NCBI RefSeq assembly: GCF_004795855.1
Contig: NZ_CP039252.1
Span: 620,001-684,000 of the forward strand
Origin: Hydrogenophaga sp. PAMC20947
GTDB taxonomy: Bacteria; Pseudomonadota; Gammaproteobacteria; Burkholderiales; Burkholderiaceae_C
Reading direction: 5' to 3'
Length of the DNA stretch: 64,000 bases
The position numbers and the translations under genes were made by a program. The notes under the pieces were generated by a model. That model searched no databases. It was not told the origin of the DNA and worked only from the letters and a program-made list of their open reading frames with translations. Below are positions 1 through 13,160 of the stretch, piece by piece (position 1 is the first letter of the stretch; the number at the start of each line of letters is the position of its first letter).

Positions 1-437
1 AGCACTTCCGCCATGTCCGCAAACGCTGACCCGGGCGGCAGCACAAACACGTTGTATTCGTTGGTCAGTCGGGCGATGGGGCGCACCTGGGCCAGCCTCA
101 CAGGCGGGGCGCCGGTGATGATGCCGCCGAGCATGACCGATCCCATGACCATCAAGGCATGGGCATCGCCTCTGTAGCCGTTGGCGAACTGGGCCAGGCC
201 GATGGTGCCCGCCGCGCCACCGCGGTTTTCAAAGCTCACCTCTGATGCCTGCCCGCTGGCGATCAGCGCCTGGCCCAAGGCCCTGCCTGTGAGGTCCCAG
301 CCTCCCCCTGCATTGGCGGGGATGAGAATGCGAAACCGGGGGGGCGTTGGCTGGCCCGACTGGGCGTACGCCGCAGTCGATGCCAGGGCCACACCGGCGC
401 CCAGGGCTTTCAGAAAAGCGTTGCGGTTCAGCCTCAT
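1..437 (-). CDS. Bug-family (TctC-like) tripartite tricarboxylate transporter binding protein, 5' part
   Basis: Periplasmic solute-binding protein of the Bug/TctC family, cut by the window edge so that only about 145 N-terminal residues are seen. The start ATG (435-437) overlaps the stop of the upstream S4 gene as ATGA. The N-terminus has a positively charged stretch, a hydrophobic core and an AYAQ signal-peptidase-like end near residue 25. It continues into a lobe with the ILIPANAGGGWD stretch and the ENRGGAAGTIG stretch, both typical of Bug proteins. Members bind small carboxylates for TctAB or act as orphan sensors. The ligand cannot be read from this fragment. Confidence 0.85.
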   Translation of the reverse strand, partial: MRLNRNAFLKALGAGVALASTAAYAQSGQPTPPRFRILIPANAGGGWDLTGRALGQALIASGQASEVSFENRGGAAGTIGLAQFANGYRGDAHALMVMGSVMLGGIITGAPPVRLAQVRPIARLTNEYNVFVLPPGSAFADMAEV

Positions 438-886
438 TGATCGTCGAGCGAGGCGCTCCAGCGCGCATCCCAGTCGGGCAACCGGGGTTCATCGCGCAGG
501 GTGTTCATGTCGCGCCGGTCGCGCTTGGTGGGTCGACCCTGTGTCATGGAGAGGGCGGGCTCCGGCGCGAGCCGACGGGATTCGGCCGCAACCTGGCGCA
601 GCTTCACCGACTGTGCCGTTTCTTCATAGAGCAGGGCCGCAACAGGAGCAGGGCCGCGGACACCCGACAGCGCCTTGACGATCACGGTGCGCAGGATGGG
701 ACCCTGGCGGAGCTCCAGGGTGTCTCCGACCTTCACCTCTTTGGCGGGCTTGGCGTGCTGACTGTTGACCAGCACCCGGCCTTTGTCGATCTCTTCGCTG
801 GACAGCCCGCGCGTCTTGTAGAAACGGGCAGCCCACAGCCATTTGTCCAGACGAACCTTGCCTTGGGAGTCATTTGGAGTGGCCAT
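434..886 (-). CDS. S4-domain RNA-binding protein, Hsp15 type
   Basis: A 150-residue protein with an N-terminal S4 RNA-binding domain (RLDKWLWAARFYKTR at about residues 12-26, then a DKGRVLVN stretch) and a basic C-terminal tail. This is the architecture of Hsp15/HslR, which binds stalled 50S subunits carrying nascent chains. ATG at 884-886 was chosen because the S4 motif begins 11 residues later, as in the family. Upstream in-frame sequence lies in the divergent intergenic region. It is translationally coupled to the Bug gene by a 4-base overlap, although no functional link is obvious. Confidence 0.85.
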   Translation of the reverse strand: MATPNDSQGKVRLDKWLWAARFYKTRGLSSEEIDKGRVLVNSQHAKPAKEVKVGDTLELRQGPILRTVIVKALSGVRGPAPVAALLYEETAQSVKLRQVAAESRRLAPEPALSMTQGRPTKRDRRDMNTLRDEPRLPDWDARWSASLDDQ

Positions 887-988
887 GAGAGGGGTTGCGC
901 GGGGGCTTTCGATGGAAGTTGGGAGAATAGGCATTGTGCCTCGCCTGAAATTGTGCGAGTGGCTTCGTTGCGCGGTTACCATGCCGAC

Positions 989-2482
989 ATGATTCCGGAC
1001 GACCGCCTGCCGCGCGACGCACAAAGCATTCTCGAACTCGCTGCGAGATCGATGTTCGACCTGTTTGCCAACGCCAGCGAGGGCATGATGCTGGTCGATC
1101 GCCATGCGCGGGTGGTCTGGATCAACGACCTGTACCGCCGTTACCTGCCAGCGCTGGGCTTTGACCGCGAAGAAGATTTCGTGGGCCATCCGGTGTCCAA
1201 CGTGGTGCAGAACACGCAGATGCACCAGGTGCTGGCCACCGGCAAACCCATTCTGATCGACCTGCTGACCAACAGGGCTGGTACGTTCGTGGTGAGCCGC
1301 ATTCCTTTGCGCGATGACGCTGGTGAAGTGATCGGTGTGTTGGGCATTGTGCTGTTTGACCACCCTGAAACCACGCTGCAACCCCTGATTGCCAAATTCG
1401 CGCGGCTGGAGCAAGACCTGAACGATGCGCGCCGGGAGCTGGCCAGCCAGCGGCGCAGCAAATACACCTTCGCCAGTTTTGTCGGAACGTCGGCAGGCGC
1501 GATGGAAGTGAAACGCCAGGCGCGGCGCGCGGCGTTGTCGTCGAGTCCGGTGCTGCTGCTGGGCGAAACCGGTACCGGCAAGGAGTTGCTGGCCCATGCC
1601 ATCCACGCCGCGTCGCCCCGGGCCGGACGGCCCTTTGTGAGCGTCAACATGGCGGCGGTGCCCGAGTCGTTGCTGGAAGCCGAGTTTTTCGGCGTGGCGC
1701 CGGGCGCCTACACCGGAGCAGAGAAAAAGGGACGCGACGGCAAATTCAAGCTGGCCGACGGAGGCACGCTCTTTCTGGATGAGTTGGGCGATATGCCGCC
1801 TTCGGTGCAAGTTAAATTGTTGCGCGCGTTGCAGGAAGGTGAGGTTGAGCCGCTGGGGTCCAACAAGCTGGTGCAGTTTGATGTGCGGGTGGTGGCAGCG
1901 ACCTCGCGCGATCTGCGCCAGATGGTGCGCGACGGCAGCTTTCGCGAAGACCTTTTTTACCGGCTCAATGTGTTGCCGATTCGCGTCTCGCCTTTGCGTG
2001 AGCGGTGCAGCGATATCCCTTTGCTGACCGAGACGCTGTGCGAAGACATCGCCGTGCGCAGCGGCGGCCACCACATGGAACTGAGCGTCGAGGCCCAAGC
2101 CCTGCTGGCTGCACAGCCCTGGAGAGGCAACATCCGTGAGCTGCGCAACGTGCTGGAGCAGCTGGCTTTGCGTTGTGATGCGCCGTTGATTGATGTGGCC
2201 GATCTTCACAGTGTGCTGGAGGCCGGTGGGCAGGCGCCTCAACCCGTGAAAATTGGGCCACCCGGTGGCGGGGACCGGCCCGCATCAAGTTTGAGTGGGC
2301 GAGAGATACGGCCACTGGCTGAGCGCATCGCCGAGCTGGAGCACGCGGCCATTGCCGAGGCGCTGCTCCACACGGGGGGCAACCGGACTGCGGCGGCGAA
2401 AGCGCTGGGCATCTCCCGCGCCTGCTTGTACGACCGGCTGGAAGCCATGGGCGATTTGTCTGAAAAAAACACAACCGTCTGA
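989..2482 (+). CDS. Sigma54-dependent transcriptional activator (PAS-AAA+-Fis)
   Basis: A 497-residue enhancer-binding protein for sigma54-RNA polymerase. Residues about 15-125 form a PAS-like sensor, not a response-regulator receiver, so it probably senses a cytoplasmic ligand. The AAA+ domain follows, with Walker A GETGTGKE (about 192-199), the sigma54-contact loop GAYTGA (about 239-244; Phe of the usual GAFTGA is Tyr) and Walker B LFLDEL. The C-terminus carries a Fis-type helix-turn-helix (GNRTAAAKALGIS). Longer in-frame extension runs over the divergent promoter and was rejected; ATG 989 sits just before the PAS region. It directly precedes a transport/PHB-depolymerase operon with a -24/-12 promoter, so it is probably the local activator. 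The arrangement resembles 3-hydroxybutyrate regulators such as Pseudomonas HbcR, from memory. Confidence 0.9.
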   Translation: MIPDDRLPRDAQSILELAARSMFDLFANASEGMMLVDRHARVVWINDLYRRYLPALGFDREEDFVGHPVSNVVQNTQMHQVLATGKPILIDLLTNRAGTFVVSRIPLRDDAGEVIGVLGIVLFDHPETTLQPLIAKFARLEQDLNDARRELASQRRSKYTFASFVGTSAGAMEVKRQARRAALSSSPVLLLGETGTGKELLAHAIHAASPRAGRPFVSVNMAAVPESLLEAEFFGVAPGAYTGAEKKGRDGKFKLADGGTLFLDELGDMPPSVQVKLLRALQEGEVEPLGSNKLVQFDVRVVAATSRDLRQMVRDGSFREDLFYRLNVLPIRVSPLRERCSDIPLLTETLCEDIAVRSGGHHMELSVEAQALLAAQPWRGNIRELRNVLEQLALRCDAPLIDVADLHSVLEAGGQAPQPVKIGPPGGGDRPASSLSGREIRPLAERIAELEHAAIAEALLHTGGNRTAAAKALGISRACLYDRLEAMGDLSEKNTTV

Positions 2483-2566
2483 TAATTGGGCGCATTAAAG
2501 TGACTGAAAAACAGGCGGCTCGAATGGATTGTCAAAAAAACCCTTTTGAATCAACGTGATTTGAGG

Positions 2567-2582
2567 TGGCATGAATTCTGCG
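2567..2582 (+). promoter_or_regulatory. Candidate sigma54 (-24/-12) promoter
   Basis: TGGCAT-GAATT-CTGCG places GG and GC with exactly the 10-base gap of the consensus TGGCAC-N5-TTGCW. Five of six bases of the -24 element match and the invariant GG and GC are both present. Transcription would start near 2593, about 40 bases before the binding-protein ATG. Two CTGAAAAA(AA)ACA stretches (2460-2471 and 2504-2513) about 55-120 bases upstream are possible activator sites, but this is weak. Confidence 0.6.
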
Positions 2583-2633
2583 TAGTGTTGGCGCGGCGCT
2601 CAGCGCTGTGATTATTCCAACAGGAGACAAGAC

Positions 2634-3833
2634 ATGACCCTCACCAACCGCCGCCTCGCGGTGATCGCACTCGCCTGCTCGGCATCGTTTTTTTCCACCG
2701 CCGTACTGGCGCAATCGGGCGGTGAAATCCGCATTGCCCACGTGCACAGCCTGACGGGCCCACTGGAAGCCTACGGCAAGCAGACCACCACGGGTTTCCA
2801 GATGGGCCTGGAATACGCCACCGGCGGCACCATGATGGTGGCCGGCAAAAAGCTGGTCGTGATCGAGAAAGACGACCAGGGCAAGCCTGATCTGGGTCGC
2901 AGCCTGCTGGCCACGGCCTATGCGGATGACAAGGCCGACATTGCCGTGGGCCCAACGTCTTCCGGCGTCGCGCTGGCCATGCTGCCGGTGGCCGAGGAAT
3001 ACAAGAAAATTCTCGTGGTTGAACCCGCTGTTGCCGACTCGATCACCGGAGAGAAGTGGAACAAGTACATCTTCCGCACCGGTCGCAACAGCTCACAAGA
3101 TGCGATTTCCAATGCCGTCGCCCTGGACAAGGCCGGCGTGAGCGTGGCCACGCTGGCGCAGGACTACGCGTTCGGGCGTGATGGCGTCTCTGCTTTCAAA
3201 TCGGCGCTGAAAAATGCCAAGCTGGTCCATGAGGAATACCTGCCCACCGGCACGACCGACTTCACGGCAGGTGCCCAGCGCCTGATTGACAAGCTCAAGG
3301 ACCTCCCCGGGCGCAAGGTGATCTTCATCATCTGGGCCGGCGCAGGCAACCCGTTCAAGATCGCCGATCTGGACCTGAAGCGCTACAACATCGAAATCGC
3401 CACCGGCGGCAACATCTTGCCCGCCATGGCCAGCTACAAGAACTTCCCTGGCATGGAAGGCGCGACCTACTATTACTTTGGCATCCCGAAAAATCCGGTG
3501 AATGAGGCCTTGGTAGCGGCGCACTACAAGCAGTTCAAGAGCCCGCCCGATTTCTTCACCGCCGGTGGGTTCGCGTCTGCGATGGCCGTTGTGACTGCAC
3601 TCAAGAAGACCAACGGTGACACCAGCACCAACAAGCTCATCAAGACCATGGAGGGCATGAGTTTCGAGACGCCCAAAGGCACCATGACCTTCCGCAAGGA
3701 AGACCACCAAGCCATGCAGAGCATGTACCACTTCAAGATCAAGGTCGATCCGGCCTTTGCCTGGGGTGTGCCAGAACTGGTGCGCGAGATCAAGCCGTCT
3801 GAAATGAACGTGCCGATCCGCAACCAGCGATAA
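2634..3833 (+). CDS. ABC transporter substrate-binding protein, branched-chain (LivK/HAAT) type
   Basis: A 399-residue periplasmic binding protein with signal peptide (basic start, hydrophobic core, VLAQSGG cleavage region near residue 26) followed by a Peripla_BP_6 fold (EIRIAHVHSLTGPLEAYG, later GPTSSGVALAM). The start follows a strong AGGAG 8 bases upstream. The family feeds LivHMGF-like permeases, and its ATPase and permease genes follow at 5684-9582. Members bind amino acids, amides, urea or short organic acids. Because a secreted PHB depolymerase gene comes next, I infer a 3-hydroxybutyrate-type ligand here; the sequence alone does not prove it. A stem-loop array separates it from the rest of the operon. 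Confidence 0.9.
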   Translation: MTLTNRRLAVIALACSASFFSTAVLAQSGGEIRIAHVHSLTGPLEAYGKQTTTGFQMGLEYATGGTMMVAGKKLVVIEKDDQGKPDLGRSLLATAYADDKADIAVGPTSSGVALAMLPVAEEYKKILVVEPAVADSITGEKWNKYIFRTGRNSSQDAISNAVALDKAGVSVATLAQDYAFGRDGVSAFKSALKNAKLVHEEYLPTGTTDFTAGAQRLIDKLKDLPGRKVIFIIWAGAGNPFKIADLDLKRYNIEIATGGNILPAMASYKNFPGMEGATYYYFGIPKNPVNEALVAAHYKQFKSPPDFFTAGGFASAMAVVTALKKTNGDTSTNKLIKTMEGMSFETPKGTMTFRKEDHQAMQSMYHFKIKVDPAFAWGVPELVREIKPSEMNVPIRNQR

Positions 3834-3842
3834 AGCGGCACG

Positions 3843-3966
3843 AGCAGGCCCACCGGCGCAGGCCTGCTCTCTCCCTAACGAAGACCCGGTTTGCGTGGCC
3901 CGGTGTGCAGGACTTTGATCCTGCACCGCCGGGTTCTTTAGCGCGCGGGGCGGCCGCCCCTTTTTT
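3843..3966 (+). terminator. Intercistronic stem-loop array ending in a GC hairpin with T-tract
   Basis: Three inverted repeats lie in the 209-base gap after the binding-protein gene: AGCAGGCC/GGCCTGCT (3843-3868), an imperfect CCCGG-TGTGCAGGA/TCCTGCAC-CCGGG hairpin (about 3900-3933), and the palindrome GGGGCGGCCGCCCC (3947-3960) followed by six Ts. The last resembles an intrinsic terminator, though its loop is tight. It may lower expression of downstream genes relative to the binding protein. Confidence 0.6.
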
Positions 3967-4042
3967 CCAGTGACCAGACGAATGAACCCCCGGGCACATG
4001 GGGGTGGGTAAGTGCTTTCCCAACTATTCCAGGAGACAAGAC

Positions 4043-5581
4043 ATGACCTTCCCTCGGTTTTCACGGGTATTTATAGCGGCGGCCGCCACAGCGTTGACAT
4101 CGGGCGTGGCGCTGGCCGCCATCACGCTGCCTCAGTACAACATCGACACCAGCAAGATCAGCGTGTCGGGCCTGTCTTCGGGTGGGTTCATGGCCAACCA
4201 GCTGGGTGTGGCGTACTCCACCACCTTCATGGGCGTGGGCATTTTTGCCGCCGGCCCTTACATGTGTGCCGGCCACAACAATTACACGGCCTGCATGTAC
4301 AACGCCAGCATCAGCGCGAGCCAGCAGACCACGTTGCAAAACAGCCTCAACAGCTTCAGCAGTGCAGGCACCATCGACAACAAATCGAACATTGCCAGCC
4401 AGAAGATTTACATCTTCACCGGCACGAGCGACACCACAGTGGGCCCCAACCAGACCACTGCGCTGCAGACCCAGTACCTCAACAATGGCGTGCCCGCAGC
4501 CAACATTTCGTATGTGCAGCGCGCCAGCACGGCGCATGTGTTCCCGACGGACTTTGACAGCACCGGCAACAACAGCTGCAGCAGCGCCCTGTCACCCTTC
4601 ATCAGCAACTGTGGCTACGACGGCGCCAAGGCCGCACTCACGCACTTTTATGGCGCACTCAACCCGCGCAATGACACACCCGCGGCGGGCAATTACATCG
4701 AGTTCAATCAGAGCACGTACACCGCCAGCAATCCCGGCATGGCGGCCAACGGTTGGCTGTATGTGCCCTCCAGTTGCGCCACTGGCAGCACCCAGTGCAA
4801 GCTGCATGTGGTGCTGCACGGCTGCCAGCAAAGCACCGACAAAATCGGCGACAAATATGTGAAGAACACGGGCTATAGCCGTTGGGCCGACACCAACAAC
4901 CTGATCGTGCTGTTCCCTCAGACCAAGGTGGACAACACCAGCCGCAGCACCGCAGCCAGCGGGTCGCTTGCCAACCCCAACGCCTGCTGGGACTGGATCG
5001 GCTGGTATGGCAGCAACTTCGCCAAAAAAGCCGGTCCGCAGATGGCCGCCATCAAGGCCATGGTGGACCGCATTGCGTCGGGCCCAGGCTCGGGCAACGG
5101 TGGGGGTGGCACCAACCCCCCTGCGGCCTTGCCTGCGCCCACGGGCGTCAGCACTTCGGGCGCCACGGCCAACAGCATGGTCATCGGCTGGAACGCCGTG
5201 ACCGGTGCCGCCAGTTACAACGTGTACCGCAGCGCCAACAAGGTCAACGCACTGCCGGTGTATGGCGCCAGCTACAGCGACACCGGACTGGCGGCATCCA
5301 CCGCGTACAGCTGGACGGTTCGCGCCGCTGACGCCGAAGGCGCCGAAGGCGCCACGTCCTCTGCGGCATCGGGCACCACGCTGGCAGGCTCAGGCGGTGG
5401 CACGGGCGCCTGCACGACGGCGAGCAACTATGTCCATGTCCAGGCAGGCCGGGCCTACCAGCAGGGCGGCTATGCATACGCCAAAGGGTCGGCGCAGAAC
5501 ATGGGCTTGTGGAACCTGTATGTGACCAAAACCCTGAAGAACACGGGGCCGAACTATTACGTGATCGGTACCTGCCCGTAA
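4043..5581 (+). CDS. phaZ: Extracellular poly(3-hydroxybutyrate) depolymerase
   Basis: A 512-residue secreted enzyme that cleaves PHB outside the cell to 3-hydroxybutyrate monomers and oligomers. A signal peptide ends near residue 26. The catalytic domain has lipase box G43-L-S45-S-G47 near the N-terminus, a likely Asp130 (GTSD) and His165 (TAHVF), then the oxyanion motif LHGC (258-261). This order, nucleophile before oxyanion hole, is that of the type 2 catalytic domain. A Gly-rich hinge (about 348-356) leads to a fibronectin type III linker (about 362-448) and a C-terminal substrate-binding domain bounded by Cys457 and Cys511. ATG 4043 was chosen because it carries the same AGGAGACAAGAC leader as the preceding gene and starts the signal peptide. 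Its place inside an ABC-transporter operon is unusual. Confidence 0.92.
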   Translation: MTFPRFSRVFIAAAATALTSGVALAAITLPQYNIDTSKISVSGLSSGGFMANQLGVAYSTTFMGVGIFAAGPYMCAGHNNYTACMYNASISASQQTTLQNSLNSFSSAGTIDNKSNIASQKIYIFTGTSDTTVGPNQTTALQTQYLNNGVPAANISYVQRASTAHVFPTDFDSTGNNSCSSALSPFISNCGYDGAKAALTHFYGALNPRNDTPAAGNYIEFNQSTYTASNPGMAANGWLYVPSSCATGSTQCKLHVVLHGCQQSTDKIGDKYVKNTGYSRWADTNNLIVLFPQTKVDNTSRSTAASGSLANPNACWDWIGWYGSNFAKKAGPQMAAIKAMVDRIASGPGSGNGGGGTNPPAALPAPTGVSTSGATANSMVIGWNAVTGAASYNVYRSANKVNALPVYGASYSDTGLAASTAYSWTVRAADAEGAEGATSSAASGTTLAGSGGGTGACTTASNYVHVQAGRAYQQGGYAYAKGSAQNMGLWNLYVTKTLKNTGPNYYVIGTCP

Positions 5582-5683
5582 TCTCGCAGGGGCGTGTGGC
5601 GGTGGCCCCATGGGCCTTGGACGCACGTCCCCCTTCAACCCTCATTTCTGATTGATGGCGACCGTGAAAGTGAACATCCACCC

Positions 5684-6451
5684 ATGAGCACCTTGGCCAC
5701 CAAGGACTTGACCATCCGCTTCGGCGGCCATGTGGCAGTCAATGGCGTGACCTGCTCGTTTGAGCCGGGCACGCTGACCGCCATCGTTGGCCCCAATGGT
5801 GCGGGCAAGACCACTTATTTCAATCTCATTTCGGGCCAGCTCAAGGCTTCGGCCGGGGGGGTGAAACTCAATGGCGTCGACATCTCTTCGTTGGGCGCCC
5901 CAGCGCGTGCCCGAGCTGGCCTCGGCCGGGCCTTTCAGTTGACCAATCTGTTTCCCAATCTCACGGTGCGTGAAAACGTGCGGCTGGCTGTGCAGGCGAA
6001 AGCGGGCGCCGGGCTGAACCTCTGGCGCATCTGGAGCGACCGGCGCGATCTCGTTTTGAGGGCCGACGAGGTGCTGGAAGCCGTGGCTTTGGCCGACAAA
6101 GGCGACCAGCTCGCGTGCAGTCTGCCGCACGGCGACCAGCGCAAGCTGGAGGTGGGCATCTTGATGGCACTCGAGCCACAGGTGTTCATGTTCGACGAAC
6201 CGACGGCAGGCATGAGCGTGGACGAGGCGCCAGTGATCCTGAACCTGATCCGCAACCTCAAGGCCGACAAAACCAAAACCATTTTGCTGGTGGAGCACAA
6301 GATGGATGTGGTGCGTGAGCTGTCGGATCGCATCATCGTCTTGCACAACGGCGAACTCGTGGCCGATGGCGAGCCTGCGGCCGTGATTGCTTCACCGGTG
6401 GTGCAGCAGGCCTATCTGGGCATCAACCCGGAAGAAGAGGAGTTGGCATGA
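5684..6451 (+). CDS. ABC transporter ATPase, LivG type
   Basis: A 255-residue cytoplasmic ATPase of the branched-chain-type importer. Walker A GPNGAGKTT lies near residue 34. The signature is LPHGDQRKLE, the form usual in LivG rather than LSGGQ. Walker B is VFMFDEPTAG and the H-loop is LLVEHKMD. ATG 5684 gives the normal family N-terminus; the reading frame extends 30 codons upstream without family-like sequence. It follows the depolymerase gene by 102 bases, and its stop overlaps an ATG (ATGA at 6448-6451) that would normally start the partner ATPase. Confidence 0.92.
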   Translation: MSTLATKDLTIRFGGHVAVNGVTCSFEPGTLTAIVGPNGAGKTTYFNLISGQLKASAGGVKLNGVDISSLGAPARARAGLGRAFQLTNLFPNLTVRENVRLAVQAKAGAGLNLWRIWSDRRDLVLRADEVLEAVALADKGDQLACSLPHGDQRKLEVGILMALEPQVFMFDEPTAGMSVDEAPVILNLIRNLKADKTKTILLVEHKMDVVRELSDRIIVLHNGELVADGEPAAVIASPVVQQAYLGINPEEEELA

Positions 6452-6540
6452 ACCACCAAGGCCAGCGCGGAACCGGGATTGCCGGGCCGCAGATGGCGCC
6501 CCCCGGGGGGGTGACGCCGAAGGCGGCGCGGGGGGGCTTC
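6452..6540 (-). repeat. GC-rich intergenic repeat element, copy 1 (reverse orientation)
   Basis: Read on the minus strand this segment aligns over about 85 bases with 8339-8424. Shared blocks in order are a C-run followed by GCG-CGCC-TCCGGCGTCACC, then a G-rich block, then TGTGGCCCGGCAA-like and CCGGCTCC-like blocks, with a few substitutions and indels. It sits exactly between the ATGA junction and the first family-like residue of the second ATPase. Confidence 0.6.
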
Positions 6541-6554
6541 TTGTCCTGACCGAT

Positions 6555-7262
6555 GTGCATACGCACATCGGCGCGTACCACATCCTGCATGGTGTGAACC
6601 TCACCGTGCCCAAGGGTGAGCTCACCATGCTGCTGGGCCGCAACGGCGCCGGCAAAACCACCACGCTGCGCACCGTCATGGGCCTGTGGCATGCCAGCCA
6701 GGGCCGTGTGATGCTCGACGGGCAAGACATCACGCAACGCCCCACACCCGACATCGCGCAAGGGGGGGTGGCTTATGTGCCCGAGAGCATGGGCATCTTT
6801 TCTGACCTGTCGGTGAAAGAAAACATGCTGCTGGCCGCGCGCGGGGCGAGAACGATTGACGACATCGACACCACGCGCCTGGAATGGATCTTTGGCCTCT
6901 TTCCAGCCATGAAGAAATTCTGGAACCACCCCGCCGGCAAACTCAGCGGCGGGCAGAAACAGATGCTTGCGGTCTCGCGCGCCATCGTTGAGCCTCGCCA
7001 GTTGCTGCTGATCGATGAGCCCAGCAAGGGCCTGGCACCCGCCATCATCCAGAACATGATCGAGGCCTTCCGCCAGCTCAAGGCGGCACAAACCACGATC
7101 TTGCTCGTTGAGCAGAACTTCAATTTTGCGAAGCAGCTGGGTGACAGCGTGGCCGTGATGGACGATGGCCGCGTGGTGCACAGCGGCTCCATGGCTGAAC
7201 TGGCCGCTGACGAAAATTTGCAGTCCAAATTGCTTGGCCTGTCGCTTGGAGCGCATCAATGA
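6555..7262 (+). CDS. ABC transporter ATPase, LivF type; start disturbed
   Basis: Second ATPase of the importer, with Walker A GRNGAGKTT, signature LSGGQKQM and Walker B LLLIDEPSKG. Family-like sequence begins at about 6534 (LLVLTDVHTHIG), but no ATG, GTG or TTG is in frame there. The only nearby in-frame start is GTG 6555, which would drop about seven residues of the first strand; the next is ATG 6387, deep inside the previous gene. The ATGA-coupled ATG at 6448 is one base out of frame and stops at 6547. One extra base in either G-run (6505-6511 or 6530-6536) would join it to this frame. Either the sequence has a homopolymer error or a repeat insertion has altered the start. The enzyme body itself is intact. 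Confidence 0.8.
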   Translation: MHTHIGAYHILHGVNLTVPKGELTMLLGRNGAGKTTTLRTVMGLWHASQGRVMLDGQDITQRPTPDIAQGGVAYVPESMGIFSDLSVKENMLLAARGARTIDDIDTTRLEWIFGLFPAMKKFWNHPAGKLSGGQKQMLAVSRAIVEPRQLLLIDEPSKGLAPAIIQNMIEAFRQLKAAQTTILLVEQNFNFAKQLGDSVAVMDDGRVVHSGSMAELAADENLQSKLLGLSLGAHQ

Positions 7263-7289
7263 GCCCCCACGTTCATCACTTCGTGTATT

Positions 7290-7340
7290 CACTGCCCCCC
7301 ATGGGGGTGCGCGTCACCCTTGGGGCGGCCCTGCGGGAGA
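7290..7340 (+). repeat. GC-rich intergenic repeat, possible second family
   Basis: The 85-base gap between the LivF-like and LivH-like genes contains an inverted CCCCC-AT-GGGGG core (about 7298-7309) followed by CTTGGGGCGGCCCTGCGGG. From memory it resembles repeats common between genes in Comamonadaceae. It does not align well with the 6452 and 8339 copies. Confidence 0.4.
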
Positions 7341-7347
7341 CGCATCC

Positions 7348-8334
7348 ATGATCACCCTGAAAGAACTCGACTGGAAGCCGATGGCGTTGGTCCCGGTGCT
7401 GGCGTTGATGGCCTTGCCCCTCACGGGCAGCGCTTCGACCTGGCTCACGCTGACTGTGGCGGGCCTGGCCATGGGCATGATCATCTTCATCATCGCCTCA
7501 GGCCTGACGCTGGTGTTCGGACTGATGGATGTGCTCAACTTTGGGCACGGGGTGTTCATCGCGCTGGGCGCCTTTGTCGCCACCACCGTGTTGGCCAGCA
7601 TGCAGACCTACACCACGGCCGACAGCCTGTGGCTCAACCTCCTGGCGCTGTTTCCAGCCATGCTGGCCGCGATGGCGGTGGCGGGTGCCCTGGGCCTGGT
7701 GTTCGAGCGCCTGATCATTCGCCCCGTCTACGGCATGCACTTGAAGCAGATCCTGATCACCATGGGCGGCATGATCATTGGCGAGGAGCTGATCAAGGTG
7801 ATCTGGGGCCCCGCGCAGATTCCGCTGCCTTTGCCCGAAGCCCTGCGCGGCTCGCTCATCTTTGGCGATGCCGCGGTCGAGAAATACCGCATCCTGGCCG
7901 TGCTGGTGGGCACGGCGGTGTTCGCCGCCATGGTCTGGACGCTGAACCGCACCAAGGTTGGCCTGCTGATCCGGGCCGGCGTGCAAGACCGCGAGATGGT
8001 CGAGTCGCTGGGTTACCGCATCAGGCGGTTGTTTGTGGGCGTGTTTGTGGCGGGCAGTGCGTTGGCCGGCCTCGGCGGCGTGATGTGGGGCCTGTACCAG
8101 CAAAGCGTGATCCCGCAGATGGGTGCACAGGTCAACGTGCTGATCTTCATCGTCATCATCATCGGCGGCCTGGGCTCAACCCTGGGTGCCTTGATCGGTG
8201 CTTTGCTGGTGGGGCTGATGGCGAACTACACCGGTTTTCTGGTGCCCAAGGTGGCGATGTTTTCGAACATCGCGCTGATGGTGGTCATCTTGCTGTGGCG
8301 GCCGCAGGGTGTTTACCCGGTCACGAACCGGTAA
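7348..8334 (+). CDS. ABC transporter permease, LivH type
   Basis: A 328-residue inner-membrane permease with about eight hydrophobic segments. It has the LivH-like early motif ASGLTLVFGLMDVLNFGHG and the internal EAA-like loop GVQDREMVESLGYR that contacts the ATPase. ATG 7348 was chosen because the hydrophobic N-terminal segment starts about 10 residues later; the upstream in-frame sequence overlaps the preceding gene. It pairs with the LivM-like permease downstream. Substrate specificity is set by the binding protein. Confidence 0.9.
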   Translation: MITLKELDWKPMALVPVLALMALPLTGSASTWLTLTVAGLAMGMIIFIIASGLTLVFGLMDVLNFGHGVFIALGAFVATTVLASMQTYTTADSLWLNLLALFPAMLAAMAVAGALGLVFERLIIRPVYGMHLKQILITMGGMIIGEELIKVIWGPAQIPLPLPEALRGSLIFGDAAVEKYRILAVLVGTAVFAAMVWTLNRTKVGLLIRAGVQDREMVESLGYRIRRLFVGVFVAGSALAGLGGVMWGLYQQSVIPQMGAQVNVLIFIVIIIGGLGSTLGALIGALLVGLMANYTGFLVPKVAMFSNIALMVVILLWRPQGVYPVTNR

Positions 8335-8338
8335 TGGG

Positions 8339-8424
8339 CTCCCCCCCGCGTCGCCTCCGGCGTCACCCCAAGGGAGCGCAGCCTGTGGCCCGGCAAAGCC
8401 GGCTCCACGGCTGCTGCTGGGGGA
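8339..8424 (+). repeat. GC-rich intergenic repeat element, copy 2
   Basis: This copy fills most of the 138-base gap between the two permease genes. It aligns with the reverse complement of 6452-6540: C-run, CGCCTCCGGCGTCACC block, G-rich block, TGTGGCCCGGCAAAGCCGG block. No coding potential is apparent. Confidence 0.6.
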
Positions 8425-8472
8425 CGGCACGCCTTGTCCAACACCCGTCATTCAATTTGAGAGAACTTGCGC

Positions 8473-9582
8473 ATGATTCGACGACTCCTCTCTGACGACA
8501 TGCCGCGCAGCCGCTGGCTCGCCGCCTTGTTGATCATCCTGTTCCTCGGGCTGGCATTGGCGCCGTTCCTGTTCCCGGGTGTCAAGGCCCTCAACGTCGC
8601 AGCCAAGGTGCTGATTTTTGTGGCGTTGGTGGCGAGCTTCGACTTGCTGCTTGGCTATACCGGCATTGTGAGCTTTGCGCACACCATGTTTTTTGGCATC
8701 GGTGCCTATGGGGTGGCGATCTCCATGTCATCGGTGGAAGAACCCACCTGGGGTGCTCTGGCGCTGGGCGTGGGTGCGGCCTTGCTGGTGTCCTTGTTGC
8801 TTTCGTTGTTGATCGGCTTGTTTTCGCTGCGGGTGCGGGCCATCTTCTTCGCCATGATCACGCTGGCGGTGGCCTCGGCGTTTCTCACGCTGGCCTCGCA
8901 GCTCTCGCAATTCACGGGTGGCGAAGACGGCCTGAGCTTCTCGGTGCCTGAGCTGTTATCCCCTTCGTTTGAACTGATGGAGGATCCCATCACCACCCCA
9001 CTGGGTGAGGTGTACCTGGATGGCAAGCTGATCAGCTACTACCTGTTGTTCTTGGTGGTGACCGCGATTTTCCTGACCATTCTGCGCATCGTGAACTCGC
9101 CATTTGGGCGGGTGCTGCAAGCGATTCGAGAAAACGATTTCCGCGCCGAAGCGCTGGGCTACCAAACGGTCATTTACCGCACGCTGTCGAACGTGCTCTC
9201 CGCGTTGTTCGCCACACTGGCCGGTTGTTTGCTCGCACTCTGGATCCGCTACAACGGCCCCGACACCTCCCTTTCGTTTGAAATCATGATCGATGTGTTG
9301 CTCATCGTGGTGATCGGCGGCATGGGCACGGTGTACGGCGCCTTGATCGGCAGCGTGTTGTTTGTGCTGGCGCAAAGCTACTTGCAAGAGTTGTTGCGCG
9401 CGGCCGGTGAGGCTGCAGAAGGCATACCGCTGTTGCCTGCTTTGCTCACGCCCGATCGATGGCTGCTCTGGCTGGGCGTGCTGTTTGTCTTGTCGGTGTA
9501 CTACTTCCCGACGGGGTTGGTCGGCAGGTTGCGAGAGCGCGCTGTGCTGGCCCAGCTCAAGCGCATGAAGGAGTCACCATGA
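8473..9582 (+). CDS. ABC transporter permease, LivM type
   Basis: A 369-residue permease of the LivM family with about ten hydrophobic segments. It has the family motif DLLLGYTGIVSFAHTMFFGIGAYG near residue 60 and the ATPase-contact loop IRENDFRAEALGY. An in-frame TTG lies two codons upstream, but ATG 8473 is the simpler choice. Its stop overlaps the start of the hydrolase gene as ATGA (9579-9582), which puts the hydrolase in the same translational unit. Confidence 0.9.
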   Translation: MIRRLLSDDMPRSRWLAALLIILFLGLALAPFLFPGVKALNVAAKVLIFVALVASFDLLLGYTGIVSFAHTMFFGIGAYGVAISMSSVEEPTWGALALGVGAALLVSLLLSLLIGLFSLRVRAIFFAMITLAVASAFLTLASQLSQFTGGEDGLSFSVPELLSPSFELMEDPITTPLGEVYLDGKLISYYLLFLVVTAIFLTILRIVNSPFGRVLQAIRENDFRAEALGYQTVIYRTLSNVLSALFATLAGCLLALWIRYNGPDTSLSFEIMIDVLLIVVIGGMGTVYGALIGSVLFVLAQSYLQELLRAAGEAAEGIPLLPALLTPDRWLLWLGVLFVLSVYYFPTGLVGRLRERAVLAQLKRMKESP

Positions 9583-10466
9583 ACACCTCGCCCCTGGCCC
9601 TTGCCCGTTCGCGCTACCTCCAGTGCGCGGGCCGCGAAACCCACTTCATGGACTGGTCGCCTGCCACTGGCATGCCCGACCAAGGCGCCGTGATCGCGTG
9701 GCACGGGCTGGCTCGCACCGGCCGCGATATGGACCCCTTGGCGGTCCACCTGAGCGCCTTGGGCTATCGGGTGATTTGCCCCGACACCATCGGGCGCGGC
9801 CTGTCGCAATGGAGCCCGGAACCCGAAGTCGAGTATTGCCTGGATTTTTACGCCCGCATCGCCACCGATCTGGTCGAACAGCTCGGTCTTGAACGTTTCC
9901 ATTGGGTGGGCACCTCCATGGGGGGCGCCATCGGCTTGGTCTGTGCCGCCGGGACGCTTCGTGACCGGATCACGCGGCTGGTGCTCAACGACATCGGCCC
10001 GGAGCTCGCTGCGCCGGCCATTGAACGCATCCGTTCCTACGCGGGCAGCCCGGCTTCGTTTGCCACGGTGAGCGAACTCGAGCAGTATTTCCGCACGGTC
10101 TACAAGCCCTATGGCTTTCTGACTGACGCGCAATGGACACTGCTCACCGAGAGCTCCACGCGCCGCCTGCCCAATGGGTGGGTCACACCGCACTACGACC
10201 CGGCCATGGTGATGCAGTTCACCCACCATCCCGACGACTATGGGCTGTGGGACGCTTACGACCGCATCGGTGTGCCGGTGTTGTGTTTGCGGGGCGCTGA
10301 TTCGGATCTGCTGCTGGCCGAGACCGCCGAGGCCATGCGCGAGCGCGGTCCGTGCGCACAGCTGGTGACCATTGAAGGGTGTGGCCACGCGCCGGCGCTC
10401 AATGTGCCGGATCAGCTGGGGCTGGTGCAGCACTTCCTTGCTACTCCCCGTTGTTCAGCGCCCTGA
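9579..10466 (+). CDS. Alpha/beta-hydrolase (putative esterase/oligomer hydrolase)
   Basis: A 295-residue alpha/beta-hydrolase without a signal peptide, so probably cytoplasmic. The nucleophile elbow is GTSMGG, with acid candidate GADSDLL and catalytic His in EGCGHAPAL; HGLARTGRD near residue 42 fits the oxyanion region. It is coupled to the LivM-like gene by a 4-base overlap and ends the transporter operon. In that position an intracellular hydrolase of imported ester oligomers, for example 3-hydroxybutyrate dimers, is a sensible inference. The family is too broad to name a substrate from sequence. Confidence 0.8.
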   Translation: MNTSPLALARSRYLQCAGRETHFMDWSPATGMPDQGAVIAWHGLARTGRDMDPLAVHLSALGYRVICPDTIGRGLSQWSPEPEVEYCLDFYARIATDLVEQLGLERFHWVGTSMGGAIGLVCAAGTLRDRITRLVLNDIGPELAAPAIERIRSYAGSPASFATVSELEQYFRTVYKPYGFLTDAQWTLLTESSTRRLPNGWVTPHYDPAMVMQFTHHPDDYGLWDAYDRIGVPVLCLRGADSDLLLAETAEAMRERGPCAQLVTIEGCGHAPALNVPDQLGLVQHFLATPRCSAP

Positions 10467-10480
10467 AGCCACTGCGCGGC

Positions 10481-10681
10481 TTACTGACCCTGTTTGATGA
10501 CGCCAGAGTCCTTCTTGTACTGGTCGTATGACTTGTCAGCTTCTCGCATGCACTTCAGCCGTTCCTGAGCATCGATGATCTTGATGCACTGGTTGCGTTG
10601 CCAGTTCTGGACGCTGGCATAGCCCTGGCGCGCGCTGCATGCAGCCAGCCCGCTGAGCAGCACCAAGACGATGGCGGGCAT
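10481..10681 (-). CDS. Small putative lipoprotein
   Basis: A 66-residue protein with a short hydrophobic N-terminus and a lipobox LAAC (lipidated Cys15). The mature part is charged and has two further cysteines (Cys32 and Cys44 in QCIKIIDAQERLKC) that could form a disulfide. It lies 41 bases downstream of hemH on the same strand and may share its transcript. I do not recognise a named family; short lipoproteins like this are seen in Burkholderiales. In-frame codons continue upstream, but ATG 10681 gives the best lipoprotein signal. Confidence 0.6.
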   Translation of the reverse strand: MPAIVLVLLSGLAACSARQGYASVQNWQRNQCIKIIDAQERLKCMREADKSYDQYKKDSGVIKQGQ

Positions 10682-10722
10682 CAGGTAGCGGGTGTGTGTG
10701 GACGGGGGCGTGGGCCTGACGA

Positions 10723-11814
10723 TCAATCTTTGGATCCCAGCTCCAAGGCGCGCTCGCGGCTGGCTTTCAATGCCATCGGGTCGTCGGCCTGAAGCGTCGG
10801 CCAGCCTTGCAGATGGCGCTCGGCCAAATCGGCGAGCGCCCGGATCCAGTCGGGGCTGTCGTTCACGCACTCGATGTAATTGAAGGTTTGGCCACCGGCG
10901 TGCAGAAAGGCTTCGCGCGCCTCCATGTTGATTTCTTCCAGCGTTTCCAGGCAGTCGCTGGTGAAGCCGGGGCAGATCAGGTCCACGCTCTGCAAGCCTC
11001 CCTTGGCCAGTGCCTTCAGCGTTGGCTCGGTATAGGGCTCCAGCCATTTCGCCTTGCCAAAGCGCGACTGGAAGGTGACCAGGTAGCGGTCTTTGGACAG
11101 GCCCAGCCGCTCGGCCAGCAAACGCGCGGTCTTGTGGCATTCGCAGTGGTAGGGGTCACCGAGTTGCAGGGTGCGCTCGGGCACGCCGTGAAAGCTCATC
11201 ACCAGTTTGTCGGCCTGGCCGTTGTGCATCCAGTGTTGGCGAACTTTCTTGGCCAATGCCTCGATGTAGCCGGCGTCGTCGTGGTAGCGGTTGATGAACC
11301 GAATTTCGGGCAAGTTGCGGATGTTCAGCCCCCAGGTGGCCACGGCGTCGAACACGCTGGCGGTCGTCGTGCCGCTGTATTGCGGGTAGGCTGGTACGAA
11401 GAGCACACGCGTCATGCCCTGGGCTTTGAGCTCATCCAGCACAGCGGGAATCGACGGGTTGCCGTAGCGCATGGCGTAGCGCACGGTGACCTGGTGGCCG
11501 CGCTCGCCCAGGTAGCCGCGCAGCAGCGTGGCCTGCTTTTCGGTCCAGACCTTGAGCGGCGAGCCTTCCGGCATCCAGACGCTGGCGTACTTGGCCGCCG
11601 ATTTCTTGGGGCGCAAGCGCAGAATGATCCCGTGCAGGATCAGCCACCAGACAGGTTTGGGAATCTCCACGACCCGGTGGTCGCTCAGGAACTCTGCCAG
11701 ATACCGGCGCAAAGCGGGTGCCGTGGGCGCGTCGGGCGTGCCGAGGTTGCACAGCACAACAGCCGTGCGCTGCGACTGGCCATGGGAGAAGGGGGGTTCT
11801 TTTTGGAAGCTCAT
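10723..11814 (-). CDS. hemH: Ferrochelatase
   Basis: A 363-residue ferrochelatase that inserts ferrous iron into protoporphyrin IX in the last step of heme synthesis. The N-terminal VVLCNLGTPDAPT stretch, the catalytic-His motif MSFHGVPER and the acidic PGFTSDCLETLEEI motif are all present. The length is normal for the family. No [2Fe-2S] C-terminal extension of the animal type is present. The start faces the HAD gene start only 19 bases away, so promoters of both must overlap or lie inside coding sequence. Heme supply fits the cytochrome-rich far end of this window, though no direct link is visible. Confidence 0.97.
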   Translation of the reverse strand: MSFQKEPPFSHGQSQRTAVVLCNLGTPDAPTAPALRRYLAEFLSDHRVVEIPKPVWWLILHGIILRLRPKKSAAKYASVWMPEGSPLKVWTEKQATLLRGYLGERGHQVTVRYAMRYGNPSIPAVLDELKAQGMTRVLFVPAYPQYSGTTTASVFDAVATWGLNIRNLPEIRFINRYHDDAGYIEALAKKVRQHWMHNGQADKLVMSFHGVPERTLQLGDPYHCECHKTARLLAERLGLSKDRYLVTFQSRFGKAKWLEPYTEPTLKALAKGGLQSVDLICPGFTSDCLETLEEINMEAREAFLHAGGQTFNYIECVNDSPDWIRALADLAERHLQGWPTLQADDPMALKASRERALELGSKD

Positions 11815-11833
11815 GCGCTATTCTCCCGCAGAC

Positions 11834-12583
11834 ATGAAGACCTTTGAAACTGCCAACATGGCCTTTCCCCCTGCCCACACGGATCAGGGACTCGATGTGG
11901 GGCGCATCCGCGCCATCACCATCGATCTGGACGACACCTTGTGGCCGATCTGGCCCACGATTGCCCGCGCCGAATCGGTCCTTCAGGCCTGGATGGACGA
12001 GCGCGCGCCGGCAACGGCCGCGCTGGGGCGTGACAAAAACACCTTGCGTGAAGTGCGCAACCAGATGGCCACGCTCCGGCCCGATATCGCGCACGACATG
12101 AGTGCCTTGCGTCGGGAGTCGATCCGTTTGCTGCTGAACCGTGCGGGCGAAGACCCGGCGCTGGCCGAGCCCGCTTTCGAGATTTTCTTCGCCGAGCGGC
12201 ACCGCGTGGACCTGTTTGAAGACGCTTTGCCCGCGCTGGAGTTCCTGTCCAGCCGCTTTCCGGTGGTGGCTTTGTCCAACGGCAATGCCGATGTGCACCG
12301 GGTGGGGCTGGGTGAGCATTTCCACGCTGCCTTGAGTGCACAGAGCTTTGGTGTGGGCAAACCCGACGCCCGGATATTCCACGCGGGCGCTGCAGCCGCG
12401 GGCGTGGCGCCACATGAGGTCTTGCACATCGGCGATGACGCCCACCTCGATGGGCTGGGCGCGATCCAGGCCGGCATGCAATTCGCCTGGATCCGCCGGG
12501 AAGGCCAGGCTTGGGAACACGCGCCGCTCACGCCCCATCTGACGATAACGGACCTGTTGGTCCTGTGTCGCGCAATGAGCTGA
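11834..12583 (+). CDS. HAD-superfamily hydrolase
   Basis: A 249-residue HAD phosphatase. Motif I is DLDDTLW (nucleophile and acid Asp), motif II is SNGN, the motif III Lys is in KPDARIF, and motif IV is IGDDAHLD. An all-helical cap (about residues 50-130) follows motif I, as in subclass I enzymes acting on small phosphate esters. ATG 11834 is the longest plausible start; ATG 11858 (MAFPPAH) would leave more room for a promoter against divergent hemH. The substrate is not predictable. Confidence 0.85.
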   Translation: MKTFETANMAFPPAHTDQGLDVGRIRAITIDLDDTLWPIWPTIARAESVLQAWMDERAPATAALGRDKNTLREVRNQMATLRPDIAHDMSALRRESIRLLLNRAGEDPALAEPAFEIFFAERHRVDLFEDALPALEFLSSRFPVVALSNGNADVHRVGLGEHFHAALSAQSFGVGKPDARIFHAGAAAAGVAPHEVLHIGDDAHLDGLGAIQAGMQFAWIRREGQAWEHAPLTPHLTITDLLVLCRAMS

Positions 12584-12599
12584 TACCAAGGAACACTCA

Positions 12600-13160
12600 G
12601 TGCTGTTTCTGGCGTTGTCTGGCAGCCTGCGGCGCGCATCGATCCACAGTGCGGTGTTGCGAGCCGCCGCGCGATTGGCGCCCCCATCCATCGAGGTACA
12701 CCTGTGCGCGGTGCTGGGGGACTTGCCGCTGTTCAATCCGGATGATCTGGATGCGCCGGGTGACGCAGTGCAACGGTTGTGGCGAGCTGTCGCTCAGGCC
12801 GACGCCCTGATTTTCGCAAGCCCGGAATACGCGCACGGGGTCTCTGGCACGATCAAGAACGCGCTGGACTGGCTGGTCAGTTTTGGGCCATTTGCCCTCC
12901 AGCCGGTGGCGGTGATCAACACGTCGCCGAGGGCACATCACGCTGACGCAGCGTTGCGAGAAACCCTCACGACCATGGCTGCACGCCTGGTTGAGCCCGC
13001 TTCGGTCTCGCTGTCTGTTTTGGGCGCCCACCTGGACGAAGACGGCTTGGTTGATTCGCCGGAGCTGGCGCCCGCGATCCGCGCTTTGTTGCTGGCGCTG
13101 GCTGATGGCGTCGAGCGGGCGCGGGGCCTGGACGCAGCGCTCCCGCGTCACGCACTATGA
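12600..13160 (+). CDS. NADPH-dependent FMN reductase
   Basis: A 186-residue flavodoxin-fold reductase. The FMN phosphate loop is SGSLRRASIH near residue 7, and the SPEYAHGVSGTIKNALDWL motif (about residues 74-92) is diagnostic of the FMN_red/chromate-quinone reductase family. The start is GTG 12600, 16 bases after the HAD stop, preceded by AAGGA; it begins directly with the first beta-strand. It probably belongs to one transcript with the HAD and GST genes. Its electron acceptor is not evident. Confidence 0.85.
   Translation: MLFLALSGSLRRASIHSAVLRAAARLAPPSIEVHLCAVLGDLPLFNPDDLDAPGDAVQRLWRAVAQADALIFASPEYAHGVSGTIKNALDWLVSFGPFALQPVAVINTSPRAHHADAALRETLTTMAARLVEPASVSLSVLGAHLDEDGLVDSPELAPAIRALLLALADGVERARGLDAALPRHAL

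Follow-up and report, generated by a model that had tools for sequence, protein, structure and literature searches.

A set of genes in Hydrogenophaga sp. PAMC20947 is likely to be a regulated operon for the utilization of PHB, incorporating an importer for 3-hydroxybutyrate (3HB) and/or its short oligomers. The genes lie on one strand of the stretch of 64,000 nucleotides that was analysed (the window), with the gene for a sigma54 activator first, followed by those for a binding protein (SBP), a type 2 PHB depolymerase, a pair of ATPases, a pair of permeases and an alpha/beta hydrolase (Table 1). A preliminary description had listed these genes and proposed that they serve in PHB scavenging. 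Profile searches with Pfam and NCBIfam recovered all of them in that order, and the reading is supported by the linkage of depolymerase and SBP in the family (53 of 82 depolymerases), by a 3HB-oligomer hydrolase (3HBOH) in the cluster of relatives and by a conserved sigma54 promoter before the SBP gene.

Table 1. Features of the gene set, with positions counted from the first letter of the window.
Feature	Position	Strand	Evidence or remark
Whole gene set	989-10466	+	All genes on this strand
PAS-AAA+-Fis sigma54 activator	989..2482	+	Sigma54_activat 223 bits; PAS_4 at cut-off 23.1; Fis-type HTH
Predicted sigma54 (-24/-12) promoter	2567..2582	+	TGGCATG-N4-CTGCG; 51 nt 5' of SBP start; 9/12 consensus positions
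SBP	2634..3833	+	Peripla_BP_6 184.6 bits; nearest solved structures 3n0x/3nnd
Terminator-like hairpin	3947..3966	+	GGGGCGGCCGCCCC + T6; between SBP and depolymerase
Conserved leader hairpin	3986..4005	+	ACCCCCG(GGCACA)TGGGGGT; covariance model match; paired changes in relatives
Type 2 PHB depolymerase	4043..5581	+	NF050059 385 bits (385.4), cut-off 280; 2d80 E 4e-97
LivG-type ATPase	5684..6451	+	Pfam/NCBIfam
LivF-type ATPase	6387..7262	+	ORF; homology from ~6537, start uncertain; Pfam/NCBIfam
LivH-type permease	7345..8334	+	PF02653 128 bits
LivM-type permease	8467..9582	+	PF02653 124 bits
Alpha/beta hydrolase	9579..10466	+	Abhydrolase_1 70.6 bits

The Peripla_BP_6 SBP, the two ABC ATPases and the two PF02653 permeases belong to the families that make up ABC importers of the HAAT type, the type of the branched-chain amino acid importers. 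Unlike those importers, the Hydrogenophaga SBP lies outside the LivJ/K group, and the operon adds an ester hydrolase and polymer-degrading enzymes.

The depolymerase passes the curated cut-off of the type 2 extracellular scl-PHA depolymerase model NF050059, in agreement with the type 2 assignment of the preliminary description, and shares its catalytic domain with that class. Ser45, D130 and H165 are invariant in the nine rows of alignment A1 and align with those of 2d80, which we take to be the Penicillium funiculosum PHB depolymerase. In 2d81 the Ser (i.e. the nucleophile) is replaced by Ala; D130 and H165 presumably take part in catalysis as well. The N-terminus appears Sec-signal-like by eye, and the enzyme is probably exported. 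By comparison with 2d80 it has an additional FN3-like linker and C-terminal domain, and its gene is located inside an ABC operon. The proposed FN3 linker scores below the Pfam cut-off (21.0 against 25) but is matched by the FN3 structures 1k85 and 3mpc. No Pfam model matched the C-terminal region that had been called a substrate-binding domain, a role that is putative.

Linkage was surveyed in 399 genomes of the family to which Hydrogenophaga belongs, scoring three or four first-look candidates per genome, so that some may have been missed. At E <= 1e-40 there were 82 depolymerase homologues, of which 53 are encoded directly behind the SBP (the slot) and 29 elsewhere. The 53 include divergent short enzymes with 34-45% identity (L091, L095, L125 and L127). 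It had been supposed that depolymerase genes mostly stand alone; in this family, most of the homologues found at this threshold are encoded within the operon. Forty-two SBP-adjacent depolymerases were judged by coordinates; 20 of these were fetched, and livG was found just 3' of the depolymerase in all 20. Among 80 named loci (L148-L227), a sample biased by a query alignment made of slot depolymerases only, the order SBP-depolymerase-livG is present in 70, and 35 of those 70 have a 3HBOH match. The named loci overlap partly with the genome loci, so that counts over loci include copies and near-copies; identical sequences were dropped in the promoter and gap scans and kept in the leader search.

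By hand-reading, 151 of 213 SBP-bearing family genomes have no depolymerase at the cut-off. Twenty family loci without a depolymerase were read, chosen by rank in the SBP list and not at random; every one has the ABC genes and the hydrolase together, and six have 3HBOH. The depolymerase of the window has a history separate from that of the enzymes occupying the same slot in five other Hydrogenophaga (AU p = 2.7e-5, for a clade picked after inspection of the tree), and slot membership changes at least eight times on the depolymerase tree.

The protein encoded at 989-2482 is a candidate HbcR-type regulator by its layout of PAS, sigma54 AAA+ and Fis HTH, HbcR being a PAS-AAA+-HTH protein too; the presumed target differs, being an ABC operon in Hydrogenophaga. 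In Pseudomonas, HbcR (PA2005) is an activator of (R)-3-hydroxybutyrate catabolism that is activated by (R)-3HB, according to the available text of PMC10482368 and PMC8694187. Of 20 Hydrogenophaga loci, 19 carry the activator gene on the 5' side of the SBP gene; the twentieth, L005, stops within the SBP gene. A sigma54 site scoring at least 10 is present in 111 of 139 SBP upstream regions, compared with 0.6% of shuffles that preserve single-base content only. The site in relatives is positioned as in the window and is mostly a better match; the score of 9 for the window promoter is reached by 4.7% of such shuffles.

The depolymerase gene is preceded by a conserved non-coding leader and a terminator-like hairpin, and because of these its expression may be partly uncoupled from that of the SBP. 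The leader covariance model matches the window at 3974-4046 with E 6.4e-12, the window being itself a training row. The GGGGCGGCCGCCCC-type terminator pattern followed by T5 occurs once in the genome within two mismatches. One could suppose that the depolymerase is transcribed from its own leader as a unit separate from the SBP; this is compatible with a PHB operon, and we consider it rather unlikely. Terminator-like hairpins were found in 34 of 92 SBP-depolymerase gaps (1.7% of shuffles) and in three of 47 SBP-livG gaps (1.9% of shuffles), the shuffles preserving single-base content only; this, and the conservation of the leader, argues for separate transcription. On the other hand 58 of the 92 gaps lack such a hairpin in the scan, none of the 92 has a sigma54 site scoring at least 10, and there is no sigma70-like match in window positions 1-13000. 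Moreover, the median gap from depolymerase to livG is 42 bases, so that the importer genes would share the transcript of the depolymerase. The preliminary description held that separate transcription of the depolymerase and rare linkage to these genes would speak against its reading. Linkage is not rare in the family (53 of 82), while separate transcription is possible by virtue of the terminator-like hairpin.

A leader common to 3HBOH genes was considered and rejected; nine weak matches (E 0.005-0.19, in Acidovorax-type loci) share the ribosome-binding region and lack the hairpin. Three Rfam matches over 2400-5750 were all under the curated scores and were taken as chance, including one to RF01696 that overlaps the leader (16.5 bits, cut-off 50, E 0.52).

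The ATG of the alpha/beta hydrolase gene overlaps the livM stop, and no signal-like N-terminus was seen in the protein. It had been described as an intracellular-type hydrolase, but it scores only 45 bits on NF050089 (cut-off 300), and on this score the label of intracellular scl-PHA depolymerase was rejected for the last gene. Neither the solved relatives (3bwx, 4ose and others) nor the homologues listed, at least 120, pointed to a specific function. The 3HBOH (PF10605) in the clusters of relatives scored 982 bits for the one protein scanned, the other assignments being tblastn matches to that protein; no match was found in the genome of Hydrogenophaga sp. PAMC20947. This genome encodes two 3HB dehydrogenases above the family cut-off. 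Their genes are unlinked to the operon, and no clear sigma54 site precedes them (best scores 8 and 5 of 12).

We infer from the gene content that the importer probably takes up the fragments released from PHB, i.e. 3HB and/or short oligomers. It seems improbable that the ABC transporter serves a different small acid of the hydroxy or keto type, such as lactate, the PHB enzymes having been joined to it via a common starvation signal. The SBP is more widespread than its linkage to the depolymerase, which speaks for such a ligand. Fifteen genomes outside the family encode the SBP with no depolymerase linked to it; across 398 phylum-wide genomes, with three or four first-look candidates scored in each, no SBP-depolymerase linkage was seen outside the family, and no common PHB theme was apparent among ten scanned SBP neighbours there. 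Of the 16 loci read there, 15 match neither depolymerase nor 3HBOH, so that the ancestral ligand of the SBP may differ. A D-lactate importer of this class, attributed to Phaeobacter, would speak for a lactate-type substrate; it is not shown in the available portion of PMC9007349. Against such a substrate, the cluster holds two enzymes acting on 3HB esters, the depolymerase with its repeated entries to or exits from the slot and 3HBOH at many loci, and the core itself includes an ester hydrolase. In one order-level relative outside the family (L249), 3HBOH and an AMP-binding enzyme follow livM.

In leucine-type binding proteins an acidic residue contacts the amino group of the ligand. In the SBP alignment TGGN is found in place of GDG/GPEG, so that this E/D is G. 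The SBP scores 50 bits in the genome search (67 bits in the window scan) on the LivJ/LivK model NF011933, whose cut-off is 477; another SBP candidate in the same genome scores 241 bits, and none there reaches 477. By both measures, the SBP does not belong with the leucine-binding proteins. An ordinary importer of branched-chain amino acids or amides, with the depolymerase as a hitch-hiker, would fit the family-level annotation and several public names of near SBP relatives (branched-chain amino acid binding protein), but is unsupported by that score and by TGGN, has the 53 linked depolymerases against it, and is very improbable.

In the PHB operon that we propose, the PAS domain of the activator probably senses a PHB product, whereupon the activator would start transcription at the promoter 5' of the SBP gene. 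The depolymerase would be exported and cut PHB to soluble 3HB and oligomers. The SBP would bind 3HB, its dimers and trimers, or both, for transport inward by the ABC importer. Imported oligomers would be cleaved in the cytoplasm by the alpha/beta hydrolase, and 3HB converted to acetoacetate by the dehydrogenases encoded elsewhere. The ABC transporter and hydrolase would form a stable core, to which the depolymerase, and in relatives 3HBOH, are added as plug-in front ends; core-only strains would feed on fragments that others release. We count against this model the depolymerases off the slot (29/82), the SBP genomes without depolymerase (151/213), the lack of 3HBOH in the window's own genome, the terminator-like hairpin, and the unlinked dehydrogenase genes that lack a clear sigma54 site.

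A more extended proposal, to which we would give slightly less than an even chance, is that this is an unnamed locus found family-wide. It would comprise a dedicated, sigma54-controlled ABC system that takes up 3HB oligomers and has an oligomer hydrolase of its own, and a depolymerase cassette swapped between species into a fixed slot along with a structured RNA leader that separates its expression from that of the SBP; the core lacking the cassette would belong to consumers of the products of others' depolymerases.

Extracellular PHB depolymerases are well studied, while the uptake of their products into bacteria is little known. HbuT is a single-protein permease, not an ABC transporter; uptake of 3HB is proposed for it as for the Hydrogenophaga importer. 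In Bacillus subtilis HbuT is a presumed 3HB transporter (available text of PMC8000602). In the main text of a review from 2026 on how PHAs are degraded in soil (PMC13372988), a term search returned none of 'transporter', 'ABC' and 'operon'. No report of a depolymerase within an ABC operon was found in the accessible parts of the open-access literature, a scope that excludes older papers on Acidovorax and Delftia depolymerase loci; the operon is absent from the available text of PMC9007349, PMC10482368, PMC8694187, PMC13372988, PMC9603655, PMC12542648 and PMC8000602.

In polysaccharide-utilization operons a secreted depolymerase is combined with a binding-protein importer and an intracellular hydrolase. 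The Hydrogenophaga operon would have the same division of labour between outside, uptake and inside, but its substrate is a polyester and its importer is of the HAAT type. The candidate importer has a ready genomic signature, which opens the question of PHB-product uptake to binding assay and gene removal. The core with depolymerase may mark organisms that start PHB breakdown, and the core alone those that use only released fragments. Candidate importers of this kind occur in Acidovorax, Variovorax, Diaphorobacter, Caldimonas and Hydrogenophaga; locus L180 is that of Acidovorax sp. GW101-3H11.

The gene set is best explained as a PHB-utilisation operon. That a depolymerase gene lies inside the gene set of an ABC importer, as the preliminary description had proposed, is real, with all eight genes on the same strand (see table). 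The depolymerase scores 385 bits against the curated type 2 model (cut-off 280), and the solved PHB depolymerase 2d80 is a structural match. The genome is a single contig of 4.85 Mb with a single match to the depolymerase query; it also contains two 3-hydroxybutyrate (3HB) dehydrogenases above the family cut-off, neither of them at the locus. A query with 3HB-oligomer hydrolase (3HBOH) found no match in this genome, an empty search result that is weak by itself.

Features of the PHB locus in the window
Feature	Position	Strand	Description
Eight-gene set	989-10466	+	PAS-sigma54 activator, substrate-binding protein (SBP), type 2 depolymerase, two ATPases, two permeases, alpha/beta hydrolase
SBP gene	2634-3833	+	Peripla_BP_6
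Leader	3947-4005		spans both hairpins
Terminator-like hairpin	3947-3966		GGGGCGGCCGCCCC-T6, between SBP and depolymerase
Second hairpin			consensus CCCCCG(GNNACA)CGGGGG, loop GNNACA; nearer depolymerase start
Depolymerase gene	4043-5581	+	type 2 PHB depolymerase
Hydrolase gene	9579-10466	+	alpha/beta hydrolase

A survey of genomes for depolymerases beside transporter genes, suggested earlier as a check, reveals a linkage more widespread than the sequence alone could tell. Within the genus (60 genomes; SBP at E <= 1e-60, depolymerase closer than E 1e-50) the SBP occurs in 42 genomes and the depolymerase in nine. In seven of these nine (the window and six others, at least 71% identity) the depolymerase is 208-246 bases behind the SBP; the distant depolymerases of genomes G022 and G043 are not behind it. 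The gene order is common to all 20 genus loci read, within the fetched stretches, the slot between SBP and livG being filled in six and empty in 14. In the family (399 genomes; depolymerase E <= 1e-40, SBP E <= 1e-100) the queries match 82 and 213 genomes respectively, and 53 of the 82 depolymerases adjoin the SBP in this slot (42 seen beside it by coordinates and 11 found among the other 40, which were fetched and read). The other 29 lie elsewhere, nine in genomes with the SBP at another place and 20 in genomes without an SBP at the cut-off. Across the phylum (398 genomes; SBP E <= 1e-80, depolymerase E <= 1e-30) the SBP is found in 23 genomes and the depolymerase in 24; four family members carry the two genes, in each case linked. 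Fifteen SBP-bearing genomes outside the family have no linked depolymerase, their sole depolymerase match being weak (genome G740) and 4 Mb from the SBP. The phylum survey thus places the linkage in the family alone.

The slot holds short depolymerases at loci L091, L095, L125 and L127, and in the last two the match stops after the catalytic domain. At L070 and L071 (genomes G269 and G399, two of the nine above) the depolymerase directly adjoins a sigma54 activator gene outside the slot, with a more distant liv-type gene set close by; in G399 an SBP relative (67%) lies ~1.9 kb beyond this pair.

Many relatives have a gene of ~740 residues between livM and the hydrolase. The copy at L108 (Diaphorobacter nitroreducens), the sole one scanned, is 3HBOH (PF10605, 982 bits), and the remaining 3HBOH genes were identified by tblastn to this protein. 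A second, different Peripla_BP_6 protein (SBP2) sometimes follows 3HBOH (L108:14485-15747 and relatives), and is perhaps a separate receptor for oligomer or monomer. SBP-depolymerase-livG is found in 70 of 80 named loci. The sample is biased, since the depolymerase alignment used as query was made up of slot depolymerases only and, from at least 552 relatives, the 80 best were retained. The 70 include 35 with a 3HBOH match, 62 with the hydrolase, 54 with the activator and 20 with SBP2 (same strand), many contigs ending early. Among the ten others, L176 is cut by the contig end, six have the depolymerase alone, and L170 and L216 have depolymerase then 3HBOH without the importer. L208 (Chitinimonas taiwanensis) combines 3HBOH and depolymerase with an SBP2-like protein and has a distant liv-type set; it may be an independent version of the locus. 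Twenty family loci without a depolymerase all keep the ABC set and the hydrolase together, and six of the 20 have 3HBOH. Tandem SBP genes occur at L111, L112, L120, L183, L186 and L205, where the first copy directly follows the activator and the second precedes the depolymerase. L249, from another family of the same taxonomic order, has an AMP-binding enzyme (acyl-CoA synthetase type) and 3HBOH behind the importer set, and no depolymerase match at the locus.

The case for a PHB-derived ligand rests mainly on the finding of two different PHB-specific enzymes next to a single importer. The SBP scores 50 bits against the leucine-binding model, compared with 241 for a stronger candidate elsewhere in this genome that is also under the cut-off, and at the aligned place it lacks the acidic residue that serves the amino group in leucine-type proteins. 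The low score and absent residue argue against amino acids as ligand, as judged from sequence. This does not show that 3HB is bound, and 3HB is a putative ligand. The coupling of an ester hydrolase to the last permease favours import of oligomers over monomer. The structural matches of the SBP, 3n0x and 3nnd, carry only the generic name of a possible ABC-system substrate-binding protein.

Each component is of a known kind; searches of open-access literature showed neither the combination nor the importer belonging to it. A passage of a 2021 review gives the bacterial 3HB transporter as unknown except for a presumed one in Bacillus (PMC8000602). A term search in the main text of a 2026 review on how PHA is degraded in soils (PMC13372988) returned none of 'transporter', 'ABC' and 'operon'. 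Passages of PMC9603655 treat uptake in general terms, and those of PMC12542648 are concerned with intracellular PHB in Sinorhizobium.

A sigma54 -24/-12 site with at least 10 of 12 consensus bases is present in 111 of 139 regions upstream of the SBP gene, against 0.6% of shuffles; identical regions were dropped and near-copies kept, and loci outside the family, mostly without a site, are included. The window's site matches 9 of 12. A spacing of 51-57 bases between the end of the site and the SBP start is shared by the window and by 18 of 19 genus loci, L021-L039 (the exception is L025). Excerpts of two papers describe HbcR, a PAS-sigma54 activator of Pseudomonas, as activated by (R)-3-hydroxybutyrate (PMC10482368, PMC8694187).

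The transporter genes group the window with two depolymerase-less Hydrogenophaga, with 95% identity to the genus locus L026. The window depolymerase falls in a group with its L108 and L109 (a Comamonas MAG) counterparts, with support of 100/99, and a single clade with five other Hydrogenophaga depolymerases, a group picked after the first tree, is rejected (AU p = 2.7e-5). The gaps flanking the depolymerase on both sides are like those of Acidovorax delafieldii and unlike L026. We infer that depolymerase and leader probably came into the window lineage through recombination between SBP and livG. The protein is closest to Diaphorobacter and Comamonas whereas the gaps resemble A. delafieldii, so that each is at most a candidate donor. 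On a tree of 97 depolymerases, which has several long branches, the label for the slot changes 12 times; well supported branches force at least eight of these changes.

Of 92 gaps between SBP and depolymerase, 34 contain a terminator-like hairpin (1.7% of shuffles), compared with 3 of 47 SBP-livG gaps (1.9% of shuffles) and 2 of 88 depolymerase-livG gaps. A search of 3.56 Mb of loci for a degenerate form of the window's hairpin gave 30 matches (copies counted), none of them outside the SBP-depolymerase gap; the window's genome has the exact form once. For the second hairpin, 36 leaders picked by eye were aligned; both sides are changed in at least one row for four of five predicted pairs, although in this alignment one of the four is disrupted in 10 of the 36 rows. 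A simple script, which skips overlapping ACA, recovers the stem in 28 of the 36. A covariance model was run on the 80 named loci and the window, and on a set of 72 loci. It matches before the depolymerase in 43 of the 80 (E <= 1.3e-5), many of these being training rows or copies, and, at E <= 0.01, in none of 50 loci with SBP but without a depolymerase; in the loci searched, strong matches lie before depolymerase genes only. Our guess is that the leader acts in transcript stability or in uncoupling from SBP expression.
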